In this document: one piece after another, positions 26,365 to 63,196 of the stretch
How the letters are laid out: every line of letters starts with the position of its first letter
Position numbering within the stretch: the first letter of the stretch is position 1
Source of the DNA: a virus
IMG/VR virus record: IMGVR_UViG_3300013131_000042
Coordinates: 1 to 64,000 of that record
Direction: 5' to 3' (one strand)
Length of the DNA stretch: 64,000 nt
The notes under the pieces: generated by a model
Seen by the model: only the letters and a program-made list of their open reading frames with translations
Told to the model about the DNA's origin: nothing
Databases searched by the model: none
Position numbers and translations under genes: made by a program

Positions 26365-27162
26365 ATGGATACAGGCGTTTTCGAACTCCCCAACGCGATT
26401 TGCACGGACCACGGTCAGTGGGTACGTGAGATTGAACTGGCGGAGATGACCGGCGAAGAGGAAGACATCCTGGCGGACCAGACCCGTGTCATTGGCAAGG
26501 GGAAACTGGCTCGTCGCGCAGACCAGCGTATGACGGAGATTCTGTCTCGCTGTACGGTGCGCATGGGGGATTGGACGCGTCCGGACGGTAAAGACCGTTT
26601 TAACGCACCTACCTTTTTCGTCAAGGCTTGGGAGAACGCTTATACCAACGACCGCGCCTTCTCTATCATCAAGCTGCGGCAGGTCTCTCTCGGTGACACC
26701 ATGCGCATCGAGGAGACCTGCCCGGCTTGTGACAAAGAACTCAAGCGTGTAGTTATCGACCTCAATGACCTTGAGGCGCATCCAATTCCGTTCGAGACCG
26801 CGTGCCAGACCCGCCGCAAAGTTGTGTTGCCAAAAAGTCAGCACGTAATTACTTGGCGCGCTTTCACTGGCAAAGACGAGTCACTGCTTGAGGAAATTCA
26901 AGCAAACCGTAAAGGCGACATGCTTTCCGCGGTACTTCAGGCACGCGTTGTCGAGGTGAACAACCTGCCTGTGCCTAACGTGCTGGAGTACGTACAGCGC
27001 ATGTCCCAGCGCGACCGTCGATTTCTTTCGCAACATATCGACGAAGCCGAAGGCGGGCTGGACACTACAGTGCACATTACCTGCGACAGTTGCGGACAGG
27101 AATTCACGCGGCAGTTGAACGTAGGTCACAAGAGTTTTTTCTTCCCCTCGGAAGTCGAATAA
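26365..27162 (+). CDS. Tail assembly chaperone / baseplate hub assembly protein
   Basis: A 265-residue protein between tube and tape measure. Residues ~20-110 have the T4 gp26/gp51-like or tail-chaperone pattern (REIELAEMTGEEEDILADQTRV, RADQRMTEILSRCTVRMG, FFVKAWENAYTNDRAFSIIKLRQVSLGD). Two CxxC pairs (CPAC at ~127-130 and CDSC at ~243-246) likely build a zinc ribbon. A U-UUU-UUC slippery heptamer lies seven codons before its stop, so a fraction of ribosomes may extend it by -1 frameshift into the next frame, as in lambda G/GT. Confidence 0.8.
   Translation: MDTGVFELPNAICTDHGQWVREIELAEMTGEEEDILADQTRVIGKGKLARRADQRMTEILSRCTVRMGDWTRPDGKDRFNAPTFFVKAWENAYTNDRAFSIIKLRQVSLGDTMRIEETCPACDKELKRVVIDLNDLEAHPIPFETACQTRRKVVLPKSQHVITWRAFTGKDESLLEEIQANRKGDMLSAVLQARVVEVNNLPVPNVLEYVQRMSQRDRRFLSQHIDEAEGGLDTTVHITCDSCGQEFTRQLNVGHKSFFFPSEVE
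27135..27141 (+). promoter_or_regulatory. Candidate -1 frameshift site (TTTTTTC)
   Basis: In the zero frame the heptamer reads T-TTT-TTC, the X-XXY-YYZ form. Slippage by -1 keeps both Phe codons paired and continues in the frame of the next small gene, avoiding the stop at 27160-27162 and giving a ~340-residue fusion. A CCTCG/CGAGG pairing (27146-27150 with 27173-27177) follows as a weak possible stimulator. Confidence 0.55.
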
Positions 27163-47574: not shown

Positions 47575-47608
47575 AGGGCAGAGGCTACGGTCTCTGCCCT
47601 TTTTGTTT
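47575..47608 (+). terminator. Rho-independent terminator
   Basis: A perfect 9-bp stem AGGGCAGAG/CTCTGCCCT with an 8-base loop, followed by TTTTGTTT. It ends the transcript carrying the fibre and small genes, 22 bases after the stop of 47338-47553. The T run leads directly into the ribosome-binding site of the next gene. Confidence 0.9.
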
Positions 47609-48573: not shown

Positions 48574-48822
48574 ATGCACGAGAAGGTAGAAGTCTGGATG
48601 GCGTTTGCTTGGCCTGCGATCAGCTTTGTGCTGAACGCGTTCTGGGCGCAGAAGACGGAGGAGTGGTGGCAGGAGTGGGCAGAGCCGAAGGGCTTTGGCG
48701 GCATGTGCCTGCTCACCTTCAAGTCCATCTGCCAGAAGTACGGGTCGGACTGCGGTCCTGACCTGAACGCTTTGAAGAGCCGCAAAAAGCCTGAAGAAAC
48801 GACGAACGACCAGCCTGTTTAA
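48574..48822 (+). CDS. Small membrane protein, holin candidate
   Basis: An 82-residue protein with GAGG before ATG 48574. One hydrophobic segment (VWMAFAWPAISFVLNAFWA, residues ~7-25) precedes a Trp/Glu-rich amphipathic stretch and a charged tail (SRKKPEETTNDQPV). Short length, single membrane helix and charged C-terminus are compatible with a holin or other membrane effector, but there is no direct sequence match. It is the last gene before the replication block. Confidence 0.5.
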   Translation: MHEKVEVWMAFAWPAISFVLNAFWAQKTEEWWQEWAEPKGFGGMCLLTFKSICQKYGSDCGPDLNALKSRKKPEETTNDQPV

Positions 48823-48830
48823 TAAACTTG

Positions 48831-48860
48831 TTGACTGCGCGTCCTCTGGCTGTGTAGAAA
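48831..48860 (+). promoter_or_regulatory. Candidate sigma-70-type promoter for the replication operon
   Basis: TTGACT (48831-48836) and TAGAAA (48855-48860) with an 18-base spacer, placed in the only sizeable gap between tail genes and replication genes. The match is moderate. A start just downstream would place much of the hairpin within the leader only in part, so promoter and hairpin functions may compete. Confidence 0.35.
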
Positions 48861-48890
48861 CTACTACGTTTCTGACAGTTCAGAGGACGC
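48839..48890 (+). promoter_or_regulatory. Long leader hairpin covering the helicase ribosome-binding site
   Basis: Three nested stems: GCGTCCTCTG with CAGAGGACGC (48839-48848/48881-48890), CTGT with ACAG (48850-48853/48875-48878), and AGAAAC with GTTTCT (48856-48861/48868-48873), loop TACTAC. In total 20 bp with two small internal loops. The 3' arm contains AGAGGA, the ribosome-binding site for ATG 48894. Confidence 0.7.
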
Positions 48891-48893
48891 AGC

Positions 48894-50288
48894 ATGTTGA
48901 TTCGCCTGAAGCGCCGGGAGAGCCCGGCTGACGTAATCGTACGCGGGGCCATGGTGCGCGCCCCCAAACACCTTGTGAACATCGACAAGGTCCGCAACGA
49001 CCTGAAGCTCAGGAACGCCGCCTACTGGCAGGCCATGCAGACCGGAGCCCCGACGCAGGGCCTGGAGCCCTTCCTGGAGCTGTTTCGGGAGACGGACGAG
49101 TGGGTCGAGGTTCCTCGGCACTACCCCCTGCCCTTGCTCGCCCCAGCGCCTGCCACGACCACGCAGGTCCTCACGGGTCGACCACTGCAGGCGGGGCCGC
49201 TCTCGAAGATTGAGCCCCGGGACGAGGTGCAGGTCGAGTCGGTGGACGCGCTACTGGCGGACCGGACCGACAAGATTCTCGCGCTCGGCTGCGGGAAGGG
49301 GAAGACGTTTGTCAGCCTCTACTCGGCGGCAAAGGGGAAGCGTTACCCCATCCTGGTGGTCGTCCACACCAACGCTCTCCTCGACCAGTGGCGTCAGCGC
49401 ATCACAGACTTTCTGGGGATCGAGCCAGATGATGTCGGCCACATTCAAGGTCCCACTGTCCGCTGGAACGGGTACGGGATCGCGGTTGCAATGCTGCACA
49501 GTCTGGTACAAAAGCAGTACGAGGACGGCTTTTACAAGTACTGGAATTTGGTCATCTTCGATGAGGTTCATCGTATCGGGGCCAAGACGTTCATCCAGGC
49601 TGCTAGCATGTTCAACGCCGAGCGCTGGGGCCTTTCTGCCACCCTGCAGCGTGCAGACGGTATGGACAAGGCCATCCACCTGCATCTCGGACCGGTAGCC
49701 TACGAAGACCTGCGTCAGCCGCTGGAGCCGACCATCTACTTCGTGCCCACTAACCTGCAGATTAATATGCAGCGTTACATCTTCCGTGGTGGGCGCGTTA
49801 ATTTGGCGCAGCTGATGACGACGCTGGCGGACCACCCAGTGCGCAACCAGAAAATCATGCACTGGCTGGACAAAGCAGTGAAGGATGGGCGTACGGTGCT
49901 CGTGCTCGGGGAGCGCCTGAGCCAGCTGTCAACGCTCTGCGAGATGATGACGAGCACGGAATCGAAGGCCATTCACGTGGGTTCGATGACGCAGGAAGAG
50001 CGCCGGGATGCGCTGACTAAGCAGGTGGTCTTTGCCACGCAGCACTTGGCGAAGGAGGGGCTCGACCGGCCCGCTTTCGACACGCTGTTCATCCTCATCC
50101 CGTTCGGCGGAGATGGCCGTCTGCAGCAGTCGGTAGGCCGTATCCTCCGCACGTTCGATGGCAAGAAAGACCCAAAGGTTCTGATTTTCGAGGACGATAT
50201 TAGTATCATCAAAGCCCTCGGAAATAAGATGAGGCGTAACTTGAAGAAGATGGGCTATCCCGCAAAAGAGCTGAAGAAGAAGGAGTAG
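48894..50288 (+). CDS. SF2 DNA helicase (UvsW-like)
   Basis: A 464-residue DEAD/DEAH-class helicase. Walker A GCGKGKT (132-138), DEVH box (223-226), SAT motif III (248-250), and motif VI QSVGRILR (412-419) are all present in order. UvsW-like phage helicases remodel recombination intermediates and stalled forks. The first ~110 residues form an extra N-terminal domain. First gene of the replication block; its ribosome-binding site lies in the long hairpin. Confidence 0.88.
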   Translation: MLIRLKRRESPADVIVRGAMVRAPKHLVNIDKVRNDLKLRNAAYWQAMQTGAPTQGLEPFLELFRETDEWVEVPRHYPLPLLAPAPATTTQVLTGRPLQAGPLSKIEPRDEVQVESVDALLADRTDKILALGCGKGKTFVSLYSAAKGKRYPILVVVHTNALLDQWRQRITDFLGIEPDDVGHIQGPTVRWNGYGIAVAMLHSLVQKQYEDGFYKYWNLVIFDEVHRIGAKTFIQAASMFNAERWGLSATLQRADGMDKAIHLHLGPVAYEDLRQPLEPTIYFVPTNLQINMQRYIFRGGRVNLAQLMTTLADHPVRNQKIMHWLDKAVKDGRTVLVLGERLSQLSTLCEMMTSTESKAIHVGSMTQEERRDALTKQVVFATQHLAKEGLDRPAFDTLFILIPFGGDGRLQQSVGRILRTFDGKKDPKVLIFEDDISIIKALGNKMRRNLKKMGYPAKELKKKE

Positions 50289-50291
50289 TAG

Positions 50292-50711
50292 ATGAGTATC
50301 AAGTTCGAGGTGCGTGACCGGCTGTACGAGGGATACAAGCCCTCAAAGCCTGCCCGATGGGCGATGGTCGAGCGGAAAGGGCGACGCATGTTCGTCCAAG
50401 AGCTGAACGAGGAGATTGAGCTGTTCTCCATCAAGACGCTCGCAGAGGCGCTCGACCGGGAGCAGAAGCAAATCTACCTGTGGGAGAAGGAGCGCAGTTT
50501 TCCGAAGCCGCTCTTCGAGATCGCACAGGATAAGTCTCGCCGTTACTACAGCCACACGCAGGTGCTGAACTGCCACCACCTGTGGCGCCGCAAGTATAAC
50601 GGTATGAAATACTTTAAGAACACGGACTTGTTCTTGAGCTTTATGGCCGACATTAAACGCGTGTTCTACGCACGTACCCTGGTAGTTGGAGCGAACGGAG
50701 AGTTGCCATGA
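50292..50711 (+). CDS. MerR-like HTH DNA-binding protein
   Basis: A 139-residue protein with GGAG before ATG 50292. Residues ~44-88 (FSIKTLAEALDREQKQIYLWEKE..FPKPLFEI...RRYYSHTQV) read as a winged helix-turn-helix of the MerR/excisionase type. Lacking an effector domain, it may be a transcription regulator of the replication operon or a replication accessory protein. Overlaps the next start (ATGA-type). Confidence 0.65.
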   Translation: MSIKFEVRDRLYEGYKPSKPARWAMVERKGRRMFVQELNEEIELFSIKTLAEALDREQKQIYLWEKERSFPKPLFEIAQDKSRRYYSHTQVLNCHHLWRRKYNGMKYFKNTDLFLSFMADIKRVFYARTLVVGANGELP

Positions 50712-52449: not shown

Positions 52450-53031
52450 ATGACGAAGTATGGGATTCCGAAGCGCTTCTCCGAAGCGACGCTGAACTCT
52501 ATTAGCCCTGAACAATTTACGATGGTCTATAACTACGCAGAGAACCTGCGTAGCCGTATTCGGGATGGCGAGGGCCTCATCCTGTCAGGACCACCAGGAG
52601 TCGGAAAGACCTGGGCGATGGCTGGCCTCACGCAGCACTACACGAAGGTGGTGCCGAGGGCAGACTACGTGTTCATCACAGCGCCAGAGTTCTTCGATGC
52701 CTACAGCCTGTTTCGTGTGGACGAGACGGAGCCTAGCGGCTGGGACAGCTACAGAGCGCAGTCCTTTGCGCTGACTGCGGAGACAATACACTGGCTCGTA
52801 ATTAACGACCTTGGTAAAGAGTACCGAGGTGGCAAGCTCTCAGAGCAGATTCCGCACAAGCTGGGCAAGGTGCTGCGCTCTCGCAGCGAGCGTAACTTGA
52901 TTACGCACATGACCACGAATCTGACGCCCACGGCTTTTAAGGAAGCCTACGGCGACTCGATTGCCAGCCTCGTGTCTGAGAGCACTACATTCTTCACGGT
53001 CACCGGACCTGACCGTCGAAAGGCCAACTGA
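52450..53031 (+). CDS. DnaC/IstB-like helicase loader ATPase
   Basis: A 193-residue AAA+ protein. Walker A GPPGVGKT (47-54) and Walker B WLVINDLG (Asp120), then sensor-like SERNLITHMTTNLTP (Thr/Asn at ~155-158). It lacks the N-terminal zinc region of bacterial DnaC. It would load the replicative helicase encoded next; stop and start overlap by one base, as expected for a coupled pair. Confidence 0.85.
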   Translation: MTKYGIPKRFSEATLNSISPEQFTMVYNYAENLRSRIRDGEGLILSGPPGVGKTWAMAGLTQHYTKVVPRADYVFITAPEFFDAYSLFRVDETEPSGWDSYRAQSFALTAETIHWLVINDLGKEYRGGKLSEQIPHKLGKVLRSRSERNLITHMTTNLTPTAFKEAYGDSIASLVSESTTFFTVTGPDRRKAN

Positions 53032-54305
53032 TGTCGTACGATAAAGAGAGAGCTATCCTCACCAAGATTATTGAGTCTGGTGATATCAACTACGTCGTAC
53101 GTAACCGTATGACGCACGAGCACTTTACGCAGGATGACCACCGCACGGTGTTCAAGTTCCTCGTGTCGTCTTACGAGCAGTACGGCACGGTGCCGTCGCT
53201 GGCGCTGGTGCGCGATGTCTACCCGGACTTTCACCCCGAAGAGACGGACGACGCCGCGGAGCTGATTATCGGGACGGTCAAGCAGCGGAAGCTGTACGAA
53301 GACCTGACCAAAAGCCTGTCGACCATCGCGGCAACGGTGCGCGCAGACCCCGAGGGTGCGCTCAGGCGCCTCCAGACGGACGCCGCGGTGCTCAGCCTGG
53401 AGAACGCGTCCTCGGAAGAGGAAGACGCCACGGCGGCCCACCAGCAGGTCAAGGCGGCGTACGAGCGGTCCAAGAAGCTCAAGGGTCTTCTTGGCTACGC
53501 GTGGCCATGGGAGCGTCTTAACGCAGCGACCCGTGGTATCCGCAAGGGCCAGTTCATTGGGCTCTACGGTCCTGGCGGTACGATGAAGACGTGGCTGCTT
53601 ACGTACATCGCGCACTACATGCACTTCACGTTCGAGAAGCGCCCCATCTTCTTCACGTACGAGATGCCCGTCGAGGACATCCGCTACCGCTGGGCTGCGC
53701 TCAGGGCTGGCATTAACTACGAGCGCTTCCAAGACGGCCATCTGACGCCGGATGAGGAGGCGAAGCTCTATAAGACGCTGGAAGAGCTGGCGGAAGAAGA
53801 GGTTCCGTTCATCATTACGGAGCTAGAGTCCTCCGGCCAAGCGGCACTCACGGAAATTCGTGCCAAGGCTCAACAGCATAGAGCAGATGTTATTCTCATT
53901 GACGGTCTCTCATTCCTAACGGATAGCGTGGGTGAGTGGTCGTCGTTCGCCGAGGTGACGCGTGGCCTCAAGACCATGGCCCGCCGTACGCGTATTCCGA
54001 TTATCGCTACCCACCACGCCAACCGTCAACGCGGCAAAGTTAAAGCCGAGGATAACGAGACTTCCGATGTCGCTTTCGGCGATGCTCTTTCACGTGATGT
54101 TGACGTGCTTCTTCGTATCGTGCGCACTCCCCAGCACGAAGAAGCCGATGAGCTGATGATCGCCATCAAGAAGGTCCGTGAAGGCAAGCGCTGCAGTTTC
54201 ATTCTGCACGCGAAGCCTGCGGAGAACTTCTCACAGAAATTCGGCGACGTTGTCGAAGCGCTGCCACAAGTATCAGAGGACGAAGAAGACGGTCTGCTCG
54301 CATGA
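53031..54305 (+). CDS. DnaB-like replicative helicase
   Basis: A 424-residue RecA-fold helicase. The N-terminal ~125 residues are the DnaB-N-like domain. Walker A reads GPGGTMKT (180-187), where the usual Gly before Lys is Met. Walker B VILIDGLSFL (Asp291), and ATHHANRQRGK serves as motif H3/H4. Tail is acidic. Genes of loader before and primase after complete the replisome. The altered P-loop still keeps Lys-Thr, so activity is expected. Confidence 0.85.
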   Translation: MSYDKERAILTKIIESGDINYVVRNRMTHEHFTQDDHRTVFKFLVSSYEQYGTVPSLALVRDVYPDFHPEETDDAAELIIGTVKQRKLYEDLTKSLSTIAATVRADPEGALRRLQTDAAVLSLENASSEEEDATAAHQQVKAAYERSKKLKGLLGYAWPWERLNAATRGIRKGQFIGLYGPGGTMKTWLLTYIAHYMHFTFEKRPIFFTYEMPVEDIRYRWAALRAGINYERFQDGHLTPDEEAKLYKTLEELAEEEVPFIITELESSGQAALTEIRAKAQQHRADVILIDGLSFLTDSVGEWSSFAEVTRGLKTMARRTRIPIIATHHANRQRGKVKAEDNETSDVAFGDALSRDVDVLLRIVRTPQHEEADELMIAIKKVREGKRCSFILHAKPAENFSQKFGDVVEALPQVSEDEEDGLLA

Positions 54306-55405
54306 GTGGAGTAACTCCGGAGAAGCTGCAGAAGTGGTTGGTTGAGGCGGGAGCACAGCGCATCAGGCTGTCTCCCACCGGCAACTTCATTTCGACGTGC
54401 CCGTTTCACGCCGATACGAGCCCATCGTTCTCGATTCACGGAACGACTGGGCTTTACCACTGCTTCTCCCAAAGCTGCGGAGCTGTTGGCAATGCGTTTA
54501 CGTTCGTTACGAGGGCGCTCGGCTGGACGCGGGACAGGGCTATCGAAGAACTCGGCGCCTGGGACGGGGATGACGCAGACAAGGTCGTCGCGGAACTCCT
54601 CACCTTCCCAGACTACGCAGATCGATTTAAGTCCGGAGACCTTGGCCCAACTGAGACTTCTATTTCAGCCCACCAACTCGGAGCATATAGTTTCTGCCCA
54701 CGATACCTCCTCAATAGAGGATTTGATAAAGCTGTGCTTTCCGCTTGGGAAGTGGGATATGATCTTACCACTGGCCGGGTTACTATTCCTGTGCGGTCTA
54801 TGGATGGGCTGCTCGTGGGGATCAGCAAGCGCGCCGACGAGGGTACCCCCGGAGCCAAGTACGTCCACCTCGGGTTCAACAAAGGATCCTTCCTCTACGG
54901 AGCCGACCAAGCCCCGCGTGGTTCCGAGGTCTGGGTCGGGGAAGGACAACTGGACGCCATTGCCCTCGACCAATTCGGACTGCCCAGGGGGTTCGCCGTG
55001 TCAACGATGGGTGCCCTCGTAAGCGAAGCGCAGATTAAACTACTCTCTGTTTACAAGCGCGTCGTCCTGTGCTTTGACAACGACATGAACGGCGTCATGG
55101 CGACTCTACGGGTTGGCCATGGCCTCACGCAGACCGCTGTCGAGCAAATACTTGTCGCCGACAAATTTCCACAAGACATAAAAGACCCTGCCGACCTACT
55201 ACTTGCTACTGATAAACAGCGCTCTACTTTTATAAATGAACTAACTCCATACGAACTCTGGTCTGTCAACACACTACTCACAATCTCAGAAGGTAAGAAC
55301 AATGCGAGGCTTTGGCGCAGTAAAGGAAGTGAAGAAGGAGATGGACGAGCGACGCGCTTCGTTCGGCGGGAACCGCGTCCAGGACTTCATCATCAAAGAC
55401 GGTGA
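54302..55405 (+). CDS. DnaG-like primase
   Basis: A 367-residue primase. The CHC2-type zinc finger is CPFH (33-36) with Cys54 and Cys59. The TOPRIM domain has WVGEGQLDAIAL (Glu214) and CFDNDMNG (Asp259/Asp261). ATGA overlap with the helicase stop. The last ~34 residues overlap the ssDNA-binding gene by 104 bases in another frame and look like out-of-frame translation (RRSKGSEEGDGRATRF-like), so the functional end may be earlier. Confidence 0.88.
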   Translation: MSGVTPEKLQKWLVEAGAQRIRLSPTGNFISTCPFHADTSPSFSIHGTTGLYHCFSQSCGAVGNAFTFVTRALGWTRDRAIEELGAWDGDDADKVVAELLTFPDYADRFKSGDLGPTETSISAHQLGAYSFCPRYLLNRGFDKAVLSAWEVGYDLTTGRVTIPVRSMDGLLVGISKRADEGTPGAKYVHLGFNKGSFLYGADQAPRGSEVWVGEGQLDAIALDQFGLPRGFAVSTMGALVSEAQIKLLSVYKRVVLCFDNDMNGVMATLRVGHGLTQTAVEQILVADKFPQDIKDPADLLLATDKQRSTFINELTPYELWSVNTLLTISEGKNNARLWRSKGSEEGDGRATRFVRREPRPGLHHQRR

Positions 55406-56225
55406 AGAGGTTGAGATTTGGTTTAACGGCACGTCCGATGAGCCGCTCCTCTTCAAGGAACACACGGCTCGCGCGACGGTGAACGGCAAAGAGCGCTTCA
55501 TGCGCGAGATTTGTGCCGCGGATATGGAGAAGCACGATGGCTGCGTCTTCTGCTACCTCCACCAGAACGGCGACAAGCGCATCGGCAAGGCGTCTCACAA
55601 GGCCGCATTCAACGTTATCGATACCCGCTGGGTTCACAAGATCACGGAGATGCGTGATGGCCGTGAGCGCACGATGACGTTGCCGTGCTCGGACGACAGC
55701 AAGTGCGAGCACTGCCGTAAGCGCGTTCCGCGTGAGCGTGCCGGGCAGCGTCGCTGGGCGGTGAGCCTGACGACGGCACAGGCGCTTGCTGGCGTGAACG
55801 AGGCTCTGGAGCGCCGCTGTGCGTGCGGCGGCAAGCTCAAGAAGGTTGGTTACGTCGGCCCCAAGGGCAAGGTCCTTCCGGATATCGACGATGTGGATAA
55901 CCCGGAAGAGTGGGAGGCCAAGCACGAGTGCAACAAGTGCAAGAAGCCGACGCCACTCAACATCTTCTCGGTGCCCGTCACCGTCCGCCGTATCGGCTCT
56001 GACATGAAGACGACCTATAACTTCATGCCGGGCGCACAGCAGGACATGGAAGACTGGATGACGGAGCTGGAGCCCTACGACCTGGAGACGACCGTCAAAG
56101 CCTTCCCGGCGGCATCGCAGGCAGAGCGTATCGGCGTGGCGAATCCGTTTGCCTCCGGTGCGCGTAAGCGTGCTACGGAATCTTACGGCTCTGGGGATGA
56201 AGATCCTTGGGAGTCGGACTCCTGA
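55302..56225 (+). CDS. ssDNA-binding protein, gp32-like
   Basis: A 307-residue protein. The core FGGNRVQDFIIKDGEEVEIWFNG..DEPLLFKEH and CVFCYLHQNGDKRIGKASHKAAFNVIDTRWVH resembles phage single-stranded DNA-binding proteins. Four Cys pairs (CVFC 81-84, CEHC 135-138, CAC 173-175, CNKC 210-213) suggest two zinc sites. The acidic tail SGDEDPWESDS fits the protein-interaction tail of SSBs. It lies between primase and polymerase genes. Confidence 0.75.
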   Translation: MRGFGAVKEVKKEMDERRASFGGNRVQDFIIKDGEEVEIWFNGTSDEPLLFKEHTARATVNGKERFMREICAADMEKHDGCVFCYLHQNGDKRIGKASHKAAFNVIDTRWVHKITEMRDGRERTMTLPCSDDSKCEHCRKRVPRERAGQRRWAVSLTTAQALAGVNEALERRCACGGKLKKVGYVGPKGKVLPDIDDVDNPEEWEAKHECNKCKKPTPLNIFSVPVTVRRIGSDMKTTYNFMPGAQQDMEDWMTELEPYDLETTVKAFPAASQAERIGVANPFASGARKRATESYGSGDEDPWESDS

Positions 56226-56260
56226 CGCAGCAAACGACGTACAACTAGACGAGGTATAAG

Positions 56261-58270
56261 ATGCGAGTGCGAGTGCCCATTCGACGGCGTTCGGTGTTCC
56301 CGAACGTCGATGGTGTCTTCATCGCAGACACGGCTGAGAAGTGCCAACAGGCACTGCGCATGATCGCAGACTGGCCGGTGGTTGGTGTCGATACGGAAGC
56401 GTACGGCGCCAACCTCCGGGAGCAGTCTCCCGTCTACCACGCGAAGCCGGTCTCAATTCAGTTTGCCGGAGCTAAGGGCGCACAGATTTTCGTGCCGCTA
56501 TGGGACCACTACCTTCCACTACTCAACGTGCTCAAGCCGTTCCTGGCCGAGGAGACGGAGCGGAAGGTTCTCCACAACGCGAAGTTCGACATGCATGTCC
56601 TCGCGAACGCTGGCGCTCCGATGCGCGGCCTTCTCGGGGACACGCTTGTCATGCACTACCTGTATTACAACGGCGAGCAGTTCCACGGCCTCAAGGAGGC
56701 GGTAAAGCAAATCTTCGGCGAGGAGACTGTCGAGTACAGCGACACGTTCAAGAAGCCGGTGCTCAAGAAGAACGGTGAGCCGTCTGCTTCGCGCACTTAC
56801 GTGCCGTCGCTTGTCGAGGTGATTAAAGAGCCCGCAGGTATTGAGACCTTGGTCCGCTACTCGGTCAAGGACCCTTGGTACACTGTGCGGCTCTTCCAGC
56901 ACTTGGAGGAGAAGCTGCGCGCAACGCAGTGGACTAAGCAGGGCTCGTACTACGACTATTACCGTAAGTTCGAATTGCCGTACACGGACGTGCTCTACCA
57001 GATGGAGCGCCGCGGCTGTCTTATCGACATGCCGTACCTGGAGAAGGCCAAGACCGACGCTGAAAAGAAGATCGAAGAGATCAAGTTCAAGTTCGGTCAC
57101 GAGTGCGCCAAGCGTGGCGTCGCCACTACCTACATCGAGAAGTTCTCCATGGACTCCCCGAAGCAGGTGGCGGAACTGCTCGAAGGACAGCTCGGCGTGC
57201 ACATCCCGGACCGTACCGCCAAGGGTGCGCCGTCCACGAGTGAGGGCTCTCTCGCCAAGATTCGTGGCGCAGGGAAGCCCGTCGTAGACCTACTGCTCGA
57301 ATACCGCGGACTCGTGAAGCTGCAGGGCACGTACCTCGAAGCCTTCAGCAATCTTGCTCCGCAATACAACGGTCGTCTCCACACGACGCTCCGCCAGACA
57401 GGCACGGCTACGGGTCGTCTGTCGTCCAGCGCGCCGAACCTCCAGAACATTCCTGCGTCCGAGAAGGATGTATTCGGTATTCGTAAAGCGTTTATCGCTC
57501 CGAAGGGCATGGTCATCGGCGACATCGACTTGTCGCAGATTGAAGTGCGTCTCGCGGCCCACTTCACCAAGGATGCCACACTGCTCAAGGCTATTCGCGA
57601 GGACTGGGATATTCACGCCCTCACTGCTACGCGTACGAGCGATGCCGTGGCGGACTTCGTGGTTGGCAAAGAGGTCAACGCCGACCTGCTGCACGAAGTG
57701 AAGAAGAAGTTCCCCGATGAGCGCCGTAAGGCCAAGCCAATCCTTTTCGGCACGTTCTACGGCATGGGTCCAGCGAAGTACGCAGACCAAGTCGGCGTGT
57801 CTGTCGAGGAAGGCAAGTTCGCCCTGGAGCGCTTCTTCTCCCTCTATGGCGGCCTTCGTGGCGGCATTAACTCCATCCAGAAGTACTGCTACGAGCACGG
57901 CCACATCCGTACGTTGCTGCGTCGCTACTGCCAGATTCCATGGATTCGTTCGGAGCAATTGGAGCTGCGCAAGCAGGCAGAGCGGCAGGCGTTCAACTAC
58001 ACGATTCAGGGCTCGGCCGCAGACCTGCTTCGCATGTCCATGCTTCTTATCGAGAAGGACGAGCGCCTCAAGCAGTTGGGCGTACGCATGACGCTGCAGA
58101 TTCACGACGAACTGCTCTTCGAGGTGCCGAAGGGCGCTGAGCAGGAAGTCAAACCAATTATCGAAGAGTATGTTTCACACCCGTACCGCGCTCTCGGCAT
58201 GAAGGATCTCCTCGTCGACACACCTGCGGAAATCGGGTTCGCACCTACTTGGGCGGAGGCAAAGGCATGA
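56261..58270 (+). CDS. DNA polymerase, family A
   Basis: A 669-residue replicative polymerase. The 3'-5' exonuclease has DTE (Asp44/Glu46), HNAKFD (Asp110) and YSVKD (Tyr200-Asp204). Polymerase motif A is DIDLSQIEVR (421-430), motif B RRKAKPILFGTFYG (488-501, Lys492, Tyr500), motif C HDELLFEV (Asp616). Tyr at the end of motif B predicts usual tolerance for dideoxynucleotides. No 5' nuclease domain. Start has GAGG upstream. Confidence 0.95.
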   Translation: MRVRVPIRRRSVFPNVDGVFIADTAEKCQQALRMIADWPVVGVDTEAYGANLREQSPVYHAKPVSIQFAGAKGAQIFVPLWDHYLPLLNVLKPFLAEETERKVLHNAKFDMHVLANAGAPMRGLLGDTLVMHYLYYNGEQFHGLKEAVKQIFGEETVEYSDTFKKPVLKKNGEPSASRTYVPSLVEVIKEPAGIETLVRYSVKDPWYTVRLFQHLEEKLRATQWTKQGSYYDYYRKFELPYTDVLYQMERRGCLIDMPYLEKAKTDAEKKIEEIKFKFGHECAKRGVATTYIEKFSMDSPKQVAELLEGQLGVHIPDRTAKGAPSTSEGSLAKIRGAGKPVVDLLLEYRGLVKLQGTYLEAFSNLAPQYNGRLHTTLRQTGTATGRLSSSAPNLQNIPASEKDVFGIRKAFIAPKGMVIGDIDLSQIEVRLAAHFTKDATLLKAIREDWDIHALTATRTSDAVADFVVGKEVNADLLHEVKKKFPDERRKAKPILFGTFYGMGPAKYADQVGVSVEEGKFALERFFSLYGGLRGGINSIQKYCYEHGHIRTLLRRYCQIPWIRSEQLELRKQAERQAFNYTIQGSAADLLRMSMLLIEKDERLKQLGVRMTLQIHDELLFEVPKGAEQEVKPIIEEYVSHPYRALGMKDLLVDTPAEIGFAPTWAEAKA

Positions 58271-59334
58271 AGGTTAAGAAGGCAACTACCGCGGCTACTA
58301 ACGACGTTACGAAGCAGGAAAAGATTCGCTTGCTCATCGACCAGTGCAACAAGTCGTTGGGTACGGAGGGCAAAATTTATGTCGGTACACAACACACGAA
58401 GCTCGAAAGAATCCCCACGGGTGTCCTCGCGTTCGACACCATCACGGGTGGAGGTCTCGTTCGAGGTCAGCTCTTGGAGCTTTACGGAGAAGAATCGAGC
58501 GGAAAAACTCTCCTCTCTCTCCTATCTGCCGCTGCGGTTCAAAAGGTTGGCGGAGTCGTCGTCTGGGTCAAAGGCGAGTCATTCGACGCGGCGTGGGCTG
58601 AGCGGCTGGGTGTTGACCTGTCTAGCTTGGTGCTGGTCGAAGCTGCGACCGGCGACACGGCGCTAGAGGCGGCCATGACCATGGTCGAGAGCGGCTACGT
58701 CGACCTGCTTGTCATGGACTCGTATCAGGCCCTGGGCACGCGCAGGGAGAGCGAGGCGGGGGTTGAGGCGGAGTCCTACGGCGGTGGCGGCGCGAGCCAG
58801 ATGTGGGGTCGCGTGATGCGCCGAGCCTACGCAGCGGCCAACGGAGGACCTGCTGCTCGTACGTGCTTTCTGGGTATCTCTCAGGTCCGCGCCAAGATTG
58901 GCGGCTTCTCCCCCAACGGCCAGCCCGACCCCGAGCCCACGGGTATCAAGGCGCTGCGTCACTGGAAGGGAATCTCCGTGCAGTGCAAGAAGGGTGAGCC
59001 AACTTACAACGACGGTAGCAAGGAGAAGCGCTTCATTGTCGCGCGTGAGTTCAAGCTGCGCTGCGTGAAGAACAAGACCTTCCCGCCGGAGCGTACGGGC
59101 GCCTTCACTTTTTACTTCCGTAACTGGCAAGGCGTGCCGTTTGGGGTAGATAAAGCTCTCGAAGCCTGCCGTCTCGGACGCTACACGGAGGTTCTTACCT
59201 CCAAGGGTTCGTGGATTGAAGGCTGCGGTCTGCGTGCACAGGGAGAAGAGGGGTTCGTTGCCCAGCTTCGGGCTAACCCCAAGGCGATGCAGACTCTGAC
59301 GAAGGCTATTATGGAAGCAGTGGTACGAGAATGA
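58267..59334 (+). CDS. RecA/UvsX-like recombinase
   Basis: A 355-residue strand-exchange ATPase. Walker A GEESSGKT (74-81), Walker B-like VDLLVMDSYQAL, and LGISQVRAKIGG (loop region). ATG 58267 overlaps the polymerase stop (ATGA). Together with SF2 helicase, SSB and nucleases it supports recombination-dependent replication. Confidence 0.9.
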   Translation: MKVKKATTAATNDVTKQEKIRLLIDQCNKSLGTEGKIYVGTQHTKLERIPTGVLAFDTITGGGLVRGQLLELYGEESSGKTLLSLLSAAAVQKVGGVVVWVKGESFDAAWAERLGVDLSSLVLVEAATGDTALEAAMTMVESGYVDLLVMDSYQALGTRRESEAGVEAESYGGGGASQMWGRVMRRAYAAANGGPAARTCFLGISQVRAKIGGFSPNGQPDPEPTGIKALRHWKGISVQCKKGEPTYNDGSKEKRFIVAREFKLRCVKNKTFPPERTGAFTFYFRNWQGVPFGVDKALEACRLGRYTEVLTSKGSWIEGCGLRAQGEEGFVAQLRANPKAMQTLTKAIMEAVVRE

Positions 59335-59567: not shown

Positions 59568-59844
59568 CATTCGTGGTCGCACTCAGCCCGGCTCTGGGAA
59601 TCAGTGGCACAGCAAGTGCGATGTGAAGAGCGCCAACTGGCTGGTTGAGTGCAAGACGACGCAGCAGAGTTCTTTCCGGATCACCGATCTCATGTGGAAA
59701 GTGCTGCGTCTAAATGCGCTACGAGAGGGCAAAATCCCGGCGCTCCAGGTCGATCTCCAAGGGGAGAGGCTTGTCGCGATTCCGTACGACGTGTGGATCG
59801 ATTTGGTTGCTGTTGATACTGGGAGTTCGAATGCTGAGCATTAA
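59479..59844 (+). CDS. PD-(D/E)XK nuclease (resolvase-like)
   Basis: A 121-residue protein. ATG 59479 has GAGG upstream. GSGN (38-41), Asp48 (CDVK) and VECKTT (Glu57-x-Lys59) form the nuclease core as in small Holliday-junction resolvases. The N-terminus is basic (RRSKLQEK). Probably resolves branched DNA during recombination or packaging. Confidence 0.72.
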   Translation: MPKGRLLNPARSASQSQRRSKLQEKSTANDIRGRTQPGSGNQWHSKCDVKSANWLVECKTTQQSSFRITDLMWKVLRLNALREGKIPALQVDLQGERLVAIPYDVWIDLVAVDTGSSNAEH

Positions 59845-60559
59845 GCTGAAGAAGTCGTTGATGCAGGCCGAAGGGTCTGTCGATAAAGAACTGTTGAAGG
59901 CTGAGCCGCCGTCCACGGTGGCCTACATCGATGCGGTGCTGCGGGAGCGAACGCGCGAGCGTAAGTTCTTCCGACCGTCCATGCTGCACGGTTGCGACCG
60001 ACAGAACGTTTTCCACTACACACGCTCGCCATCGAAGCCGCAGCGTCAGGAGCCGCGCATGATGCGTATCCTCGACAACGGTACGGCGGTGCACGAGGTT
60101 CTCCAGGGTTACCTCAGTGACCATCCGGACGTGTGGTTCGCCCCGGAGTCTCGTATTCTCGTGGAGATTAACGACGCCTGGGTGCGTGGCTCGTGCGACG
60201 GAGTGCTTATCCGTCGTAGCGATGGGTACCGCTGGGGCATCGAAATCAAGACGATTGCTCATGACGAGTTCATGAAGCTCTCGAAGCCCAAGAAAGAACA
60301 CATTGCGCAGGCTATGATTTACATGGCGGTGCAGAAGCTGTACTGGATTACGATTATCTACTGGGATAAAGACAAACAACACCTAAAAGAGTATCCGATT
60401 GCCTTTGACCCGGTGCTCTGGAAACAAACGCAAGAGCGTATTAAACACTTGGTTTCATACGTGCACGCGAATACCCTGCCTGATTATGACAAGAGCACTT
60501 GCAACACGTTCTTCTGTCAGTACGTCGACCACTGCAGATCCAAGGGAGCCCCGGTATGA
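59831..60559 (+). CDS. Cas4/RecB-like exonuclease with likely Fe-S cluster
   Basis: A 242-residue PD-(D/E)XK nuclease. GTAVHEVLQGYL (His88), GSCDGVLIRR (Asp123) and GIEIKTI (Glu138-x-Lys140) mark RecB motifs I-III. Cys55 in SMLHGCDRQNVFHY and Cys224, Cys229, Cys235 match the one-plus-three cysteine layout of Cas4/AddB 4Fe-4S nucleases. ATG 59831 has GGAG upstream. In phages it likely resects DNA ends for recombination; no cas1 or cas2 is near. Confidence 0.8.
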   Translation: MLSIKLKKSLMQAEGSVDKELLKAEPPSTVAYIDAVLRERTRERKFFRPSMLHGCDRQNVFHYTRSPSKPQRQEPRMMRILDNGTAVHEVLQGYLSDHPDVWFAPESRILVEINDAWVRGSCDGVLIRRSDGYRWGIEIKTIAHDEFMKLSKPKKEHIAQAMIYMAVQKLYWITIIYWDKDKQHLKEYPIAFDPVLWKQTQERIKHLVSYVHANTLPDYDKSTCNTFFCQYVDHCRSKGAPV

Positions 60560-62525: not shown

Positions 62526-63196
62526 TGGGCCGCTATCAGCGCCAGAAAGGCAAGAGAGGGGAGCGCCAGACAGCCACCGAGCTGCGCGAGGCGTTCCCCT
62601 CTCTCGCTGATGGGATACGACGCGGCTGGCAAACGCGCAGCGGCAGCGACGAGCCTGATGTTATGGGCTTGCCTGGGTATTGGTTGGAGGTTAAAACCGG
62701 CGCTATGCCCAACCCGCGTGCTGCTCTGAAGCAGGCGGACGAGGCACGTGGAGACTCCGAGCGGCCCATCGCTATTATTCGTGATGATAGAAAGAAGCCG
62801 TTCGCCGTTCTCTACTGGGAAGACCTAATTGAGTTACTGAAGTATAAGTTGGAGAGGGTGCAGCATGACGACGAGAGACCTGATGTACGTGCGCGGCGTG
62901 GACGGCAAGATGTATCTGGAGGTGCCGACCCCCGAGGGAACCAAGTACGCAGAGGCCGAAAAGGGTCTCTCGTTCAAGGAACTGCCGAACGGGAAGTGGA
63001 TGGCGGTGCGGGACATGGACCTGCACGCTCGGCAGCAGATGGCGGGGAGCCACAAGGACTTCTTCGACGCGAAGGAAGCGCGCCACCGGATGAAGCGAGT
63101 GGACGCGCTGGAGAAGCAGTTGGAGCAGATGGCGATGGACCGGGCGGACCCCGGCGTGTCGCCCAACGTCAGGTACGTGTCAGACGGAGAGTCTGA
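62525..63196 (+). CDS. PD-(D/E)XK nuclease (Hjc/VRR-like), with overprinted tail
   Basis: The first ~112 residues form a resolvase-like nuclease: KGKRGERQTATELREAF (Glu13), WQTRSGSDEPDVMG (Asp45), WLEVKTG (Glu55-x-Lys57). After residue ~113 the frame continues as Arg/Gly/Ala-rich sequence across 332 bases shared with gene 62865, which looks like translation of that gene in the wrong frame. The real protein probably ended near base 62865; a lost stop or 1-base error is likely. Third small nuclease of this block. Confidence 0.65.
   Translation: MGRYQRQKGKRGERQTATELREAFPSLADGIRRGWQTRSGSDEPDVMGLPGYWLEVKTGAMPNPRAALKQADEARGDSERPIAIIRDDRKKPFAVLYWEDLIELLKYKLERVQHDDERPDVRARRGRQDVSGGADPRGNQVRRGRKGSLVQGTAEREVDGGAGHGPARSAADGGEPQGLLRREGSAPPDEASGRAGEAVGADGDGPGGPRRVAQRQVRVRRRV

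Follow-up and report, generated by a model that had tools for sequence, protein, structure and literature searches.

The leader of the first replication gene of this virus, which encodes a helicase, is probably a translational insulator, a switch of the T4 gene e type through which the replication operon answers only to its own promoter. The leader folds into a long hairpin that pairs the ribosome-binding site (RBS) with the core of a promoter candidate, and this arrangement recurs in two of three relatives.

The window analysed here, a stretch of 64,000 nucleotides with a G+C content of 58%, is part of a virus record of 67,961 bases in total. The record encodes a tail sheath protein, a terminase and a portal, and its source, as judged from the sequence, is an uncultured myovirus. 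The structural genes end at about 47.3 kb, and two further genes precede the replication module, which begins at 48894 on the same strand. The hairpin is located exactly at the boundary between the tail/structural module and the replication module, in the following setting:

47575..47600, + strand: intrinsic terminator about 1.3 kb upstream of the hairpin, with two genes in between (terminator scan)
48574..48822, + strand: small gene immediately upstream of the hairpin (open reading frame, ORF)
48894..50288, + strand: SF2 (ResIII/DEAD-like) helicase, gene 1 of the replication module (Pfam PF04851, E = 5.7e-18; PHROG 16 DNA helicase, E = 4.8e-43)
50292-50711: gene 2 of the operon, which weakly matches a MerR-type HTH (E 0.00037, slightly below the cut-off)
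52450..59334, + strand: remaining replication module, with DnaC-like loader, DnaB, DnaG, PolA and RecA (profile matches)

The helicase start codon at 48894 is backed by alignment with the relatives described below, in which the gene with the MerR-type match is also kept. The terminator scan detected none between the end of the small upstream gene (48822) and the helicase start, and therefore the transcript of that gene would enter the hairpin. Since the upstream ORF ends 14 nt before the stem, ribosomes translating it should not open the structure. Elsewhere in the record, a Cas4-like PD-(D/E)XK exonuclease gene (59714-60559) follows the RecA gene, and a RusA-like resolvase gene holds, inside its start, an 18-nt inverted repeat (62550-62607) whose arms are 89% complementary and 22 nt apart. 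Beyond the window, a GTP cyclohydrolase family protein is encoded (L049:5573-6202, or G000 65573-66202; PHROG E 1.6e-55), which is possibly a member of the 7-deazaguanine pathway.

The leader itself consists of the following elements:

48831..48836, + strand: -35 candidate TTGACT (position kept in all three relatives, as TTGACA in the most distant)
48836..48861, + strand: 5′ arm, which holds the promoter spacer and the -10 candidate (MFE structure, 25 pairs; z -6.4)
48855..48860, + strand: -10 candidate TAGAAA, after an 18-nt spacer and within the 5′ arm (sequence; weak match)
48862..48867, + strand: hairpin loop (fold)
48868..48894, + strand: 3′ arm, whose last base is the A of the helicase start codon (fold)
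48882..48887, + strand: SD sequence AGAGGA, paired in the 3′ arm (sequence and fold)

Folding reproduced the three stems of the original prediction, of 10 bp (48839-48848/48881-48890), 4 bp (48850-48853/48875-48878) and 6 bp (48856-48861/48868-48873), as well as its placement of the AGAGGA ribosome-binding site within the 3′ arm. The fold is wider than first reported, extending from 48836 to 48894 with 25 pairs, among them TGC/GCA at the base and the A of the helicase start codon; the -35 box and the first codons could form six more pairs, several of them G-U. The hairpin is genuine and much more stable than chance would allow, with the MFE of positions 48830-48910 being -39.9 kcal/mol compared with -20.7 ± 3.0 kcal/mol for shuffled sequences (z = -6.4; 0 of 200 shuffles as stable). 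It is also strong when DNA parameters are used (z -4.9), so the fold by itself does not separate an RNA element from a DNA element.

In a scan of both strands, the hairpin ranks fifth in stability among the 60-nt folds of the 64 kb, and other similarly stable hairpins are present in the window, several of them within genes. The most stable 60-nt fold of all, at 26671-26730 (-39.4 kcal/mol), lies within an ORF and has a GGCAGGTCTC/GAGACCTGCC stem. The accessibility of the RBS in the helicase leader is the second lowest of 84 rough gene calls, the lowest belonging to a doubtful antisense ORF. A search of the window for further copies of the hairpin gave none beyond chance, and no exact match to the pattern of the 3′ arm was obtained in viral contigs. 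Rfam returned two weak, unrelated matches, neither of them over the hairpin and none above the gathering score. An intrinsic terminator can be ruled out, as the hairpin has no U tract, its stem runs into GCATG, and it is absent from the list of the terminator scan.

The promoter match that had been noticed over the 5′ half of the hairpin is visible in the sequence as TTGACT-18-TAGAAA and agrees with the consensus at 9 of 12 positions; a strict promoter scan omits it, since the -10 box does not end in T. From the position of the -10 box, transcription is predicted to start at about 48866-48868, in or just after the loop. Strictly speaking, the leader does not belong to the T4 late leaders, the candidate TTGACT-18-TAGAAA not being of the T4 late type (TATAAATA). 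We also considered an N4-type hairpin promoter, used by a virion RNA polymerase; of the large proteins searched, none matched an RNA polymerase family, and the stem of an N4 hairpin promoter is far shorter than the one found here.

According to the mechanism that we propose, read-through RNA from the tail and structural genes would carry both arms and fold into the long hairpin, in which the SD sequence and the start of the helicase AUG would be unavailable and no helicase would be made. Transcripts from the internal promoter would begin in or just after the loop and would lack the 5′ arm, so that the SD sequence would be exposed and the helicase translated. Activity of the promoter, its start site and its early timing are inferred, as is the occurrence of read-through. 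The original prediction regarded main transcripts starting after 48860 as evidence against such a switch. This is wrong, since transcripts of this kind are the active state that the switch predicts, and they would argue only against a switch that controls those main transcripts themselves.

Three relatives were found by a polymerase search and subsequent alignments: L002 (an 81 kb record, G001), L035 (69.6 kb, G002) and L072 (93 kb, G003). Named phages yielded no nucleotide match, and neither a single-protein search with the helicase nor two contig scans produced any relatives. The helicases of L002 and L035 are both about 51% identical to that of the window, and that of L072 is 44% identical. 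The gene order across the structural and replication genes is common to the window, L002 and L035; the gene comparison for L072 covers the terminase and the helicase. The helicases of named distant phages that share a related terminase are only distantly related, and these phages were kept out of the leader comparison. The DNA polymerase of L002 (L002:9941-12814) carries an insertion of about 270 residues (residues about 523-790) within the conserved NFG..YG motif, which begins CIAEGQRVLT and ends VVGN before T; it has no match in Pfam, is absent from the polymerase of the window, and looks like an intein.

Almost nothing is shared by the leaders beyond TTGACT, so that their MAFFT alignment is not meaningful, and base pairs were therefore compared by position relative to the AUG. 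The distance from TTGAC[AT] to the AUG is 63 nt in the window, 90 nt in L002, 75 nt in L035 and 72 nt in L072. Plus-strand TTGAC[AT] hexamers number 11 to 27 per genome in three genomes, from which roughly 0.004-0.012 per genome would be expected by chance in a given 30-nt zone. Because this estimate is so low, the hexamer before the helicase gene has probably been retained as a promoter element. The -10 box is weak in both the window (TAGAAA) and L002 (TAACCC) and good in L035.

The promoter core (spacer and -10 box) forms 18 pairs with positions -20 to +2 of the AUG in the window, 15 in L002, 12 in L035 and none in L072. In the window, L002 and L035, most of the shared paired positions hold different bases and the pairing is kept, with the arms being about 42 bp (window), 71 bp (L002) and 53 bp (L035) apart from centre to centre. 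The L002 hairpin has an MFE of -52.5 kcal/mol (z -5.9); its pairing runs through the AUG itself, and its leader has an extra strong inner stem. The L035 fold as a whole falls short of significance (z -1.5) and its duplex is short and interrupted, but the SD sequence still pairs with the promoter core. The L035 promoter candidate, TTGACT-17-TACCTT, comes directly after a strong intrinsic terminator (L035:3850-3877), for which reason a promoter is needed there; this terminator separates the structural module from the helicase promoter, whereas the window has no terminator at that place. L072 keeps the hexamer in place, as TTGACA, but has neither a significant hairpin (z -0.66) nor any pairs between promoter core and RBS. 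The search in related genomes that had been suggested as a check thus showed the pairing geometry kept, with unrelated arm sequences, in two of three relatives and absent from the most distant one. As read from the sequences, the layout common to the window and these two relatives is TTGACT followed by a stem with its 5′ arm within the promoter core and its 3′ arm over the SD/AUG.

As a control, only the promoter core was shuffled, 500 times per genome, with the SD sequence and the coding start kept. The RBS was as closed as in the native leader in 23/500 shuffles for the window, 1/500 for L002 and 7/500 for L035, and the shuffled leaders folded as stably in 0/500, 0/500 and 33/500 cases, respectively. 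When every TTGAC[AT] with a suitably spaced SD sequence and start codon downstream was ranked within each genome, the helicase leader came first for pairing between promoter core and RBS in the window, L002 and L035, with 14.0, 16.3 and 15.7 expected pairs. Averaged over a stretch of 13 nt at the RBS, the probability of being unpaired, compared between the long transcript and one starting 32 nt from the -35 box (-35+32), rises from 0.08 to 0.38 in the window, from 0.21 to 0.73 in L002 and from 0.10 to 0.40 in L035. Truncation of the 5′ end is thus predicted to open the RBS about 3.5- to 5-fold; in the short transcripts of the window (0.38 unpaired) it is still partly paired.

The original prediction had offered two readings, a translational switch from which transcripts starting inside the hairpin escape, and an operator acting as DNA. 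The comparison favours the switch, with two relatives having the same geometry and different arm sequences. In the operator reading, which we regard as unlikely, a phage repressor would bind both arms and block the promoter between them. The repeat does overlap the promoter candidate and is stable with DNA parameters, the centres of its arms lie 42 bp from each other in the window, and the second gene of the operon, with its weak MerR-type match, is conserved in the relatives. However, the arms are unrelated among the relatives although the pairing persists, and their spacing varies, which together favour pairing over a DNA-binding site. The stems also include bulges and G-U pairs, and in every case the 3′ arm stops at the SD/AUG, which an operator does not need. 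A MerR-type operator was rejected as the main reading, as such sites require a dyad inside the spacer and none is present.

A slightly poorer prospect is an RNase III processing site, at which the duplex would be cut in read-through RNA, either freeing the SD sequence or setting off degradation of the upstream message. A nearly continuous duplex of about 25 base pairs makes a plausible RNase III substrate, and the hairpin sits at a module boundary; this would nevertheless leave unexplained the coincidence of 5′ arm and promoter core in three phages and the position of the end of the 3′ arm at the SD/AUG, and the L035 duplex is short and interrupted. The stable stem over the RBS, and the additional inner stem in L002, might also suggest a conditional element, riboswitch-like or a thermometer, which would open on all transcripts by a ligand, a protein, an sRNA or temperature. 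We consider this improbable: no Rfam match covers the hairpin, there is no conserved sequence for a ligand or protein to read, and the promoter would strip the 5′ arm from its own transcripts. Least probable of all is a chance by-product, a strong hairpin with no regulatory role. Its absence from the most distant relative and the comparably stable hairpins elsewhere in the window, some within genes, would fit, but not three differing sequences with one geometry that is top-ranked in each genome.

The insulator that we favour resembles several known leaders. Hairpin-masked leaders are found in T4 gene e (lysozyme), soc, 49 and I-TevI and in phage Aeh1 mobE (PMC3014915, PMC2988022). For T4 gene e, it was shown experimentally that longer transcripts form an inhibitory structure and that translation is efficient on transcripts whose promoters lie in the 5′ strand (PMC3014915), and the same mechanism was also shown experimentally for I-TevI and others (PMC3014915, PMC2988022). 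The T4 genes under such control are all late genes that are present on early and middle gene transcripts (PMC2988022). The likeness would lie in the SD and/or AUG being masked on long transcripts that come from upstream and in an internal promoter, a candidate in the window, that overlaps the 5′ arm, so that its transcripts lack this arm and are translated. The T4-type leaders belong to late genes silenced on early and middle transcripts and use T4 late promoters, whereas the leader in the window belongs to the first replication gene behind structural genes, has a sigma70-like promoter candidate and comes from another lineage. In the IS10/Tn10 transposase leader, an inverted repeat likewise masks the SD sequence on read-through RNA and the element's own promoter starts within the repeat; that leader serves a transposon gene with antisense RNA control and has no sequence relationship to the window. 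The phage lambda N leader is also an early-gene leader with a hairpin controlling translation. It differs in that the hairpin is carried on the promoter's own transcript and is removed by RNase III.

For the lineage of this uncultured myovirus, we think there is an even chance that an RBS-masking hairpin of free sequence and fixed geometry is an early-gene lock, which would keep replication proteins from being made on late structural read-through RNA; by analogy, its timing would be inverted relative to the T4 late-gene locks. If this holds, the device of a promoter within a hairpin, as in T4 late genes, extends to another phage lineage with the opposite timing, and it insulates a module boundary without a terminator. 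Because the geometry is fixed and the sequence free, sequence searches would miss such leaders. The geometric search for pairing between promoter core and RBS, which ranked the helicase leader first in three genomes, could be applied across phages.
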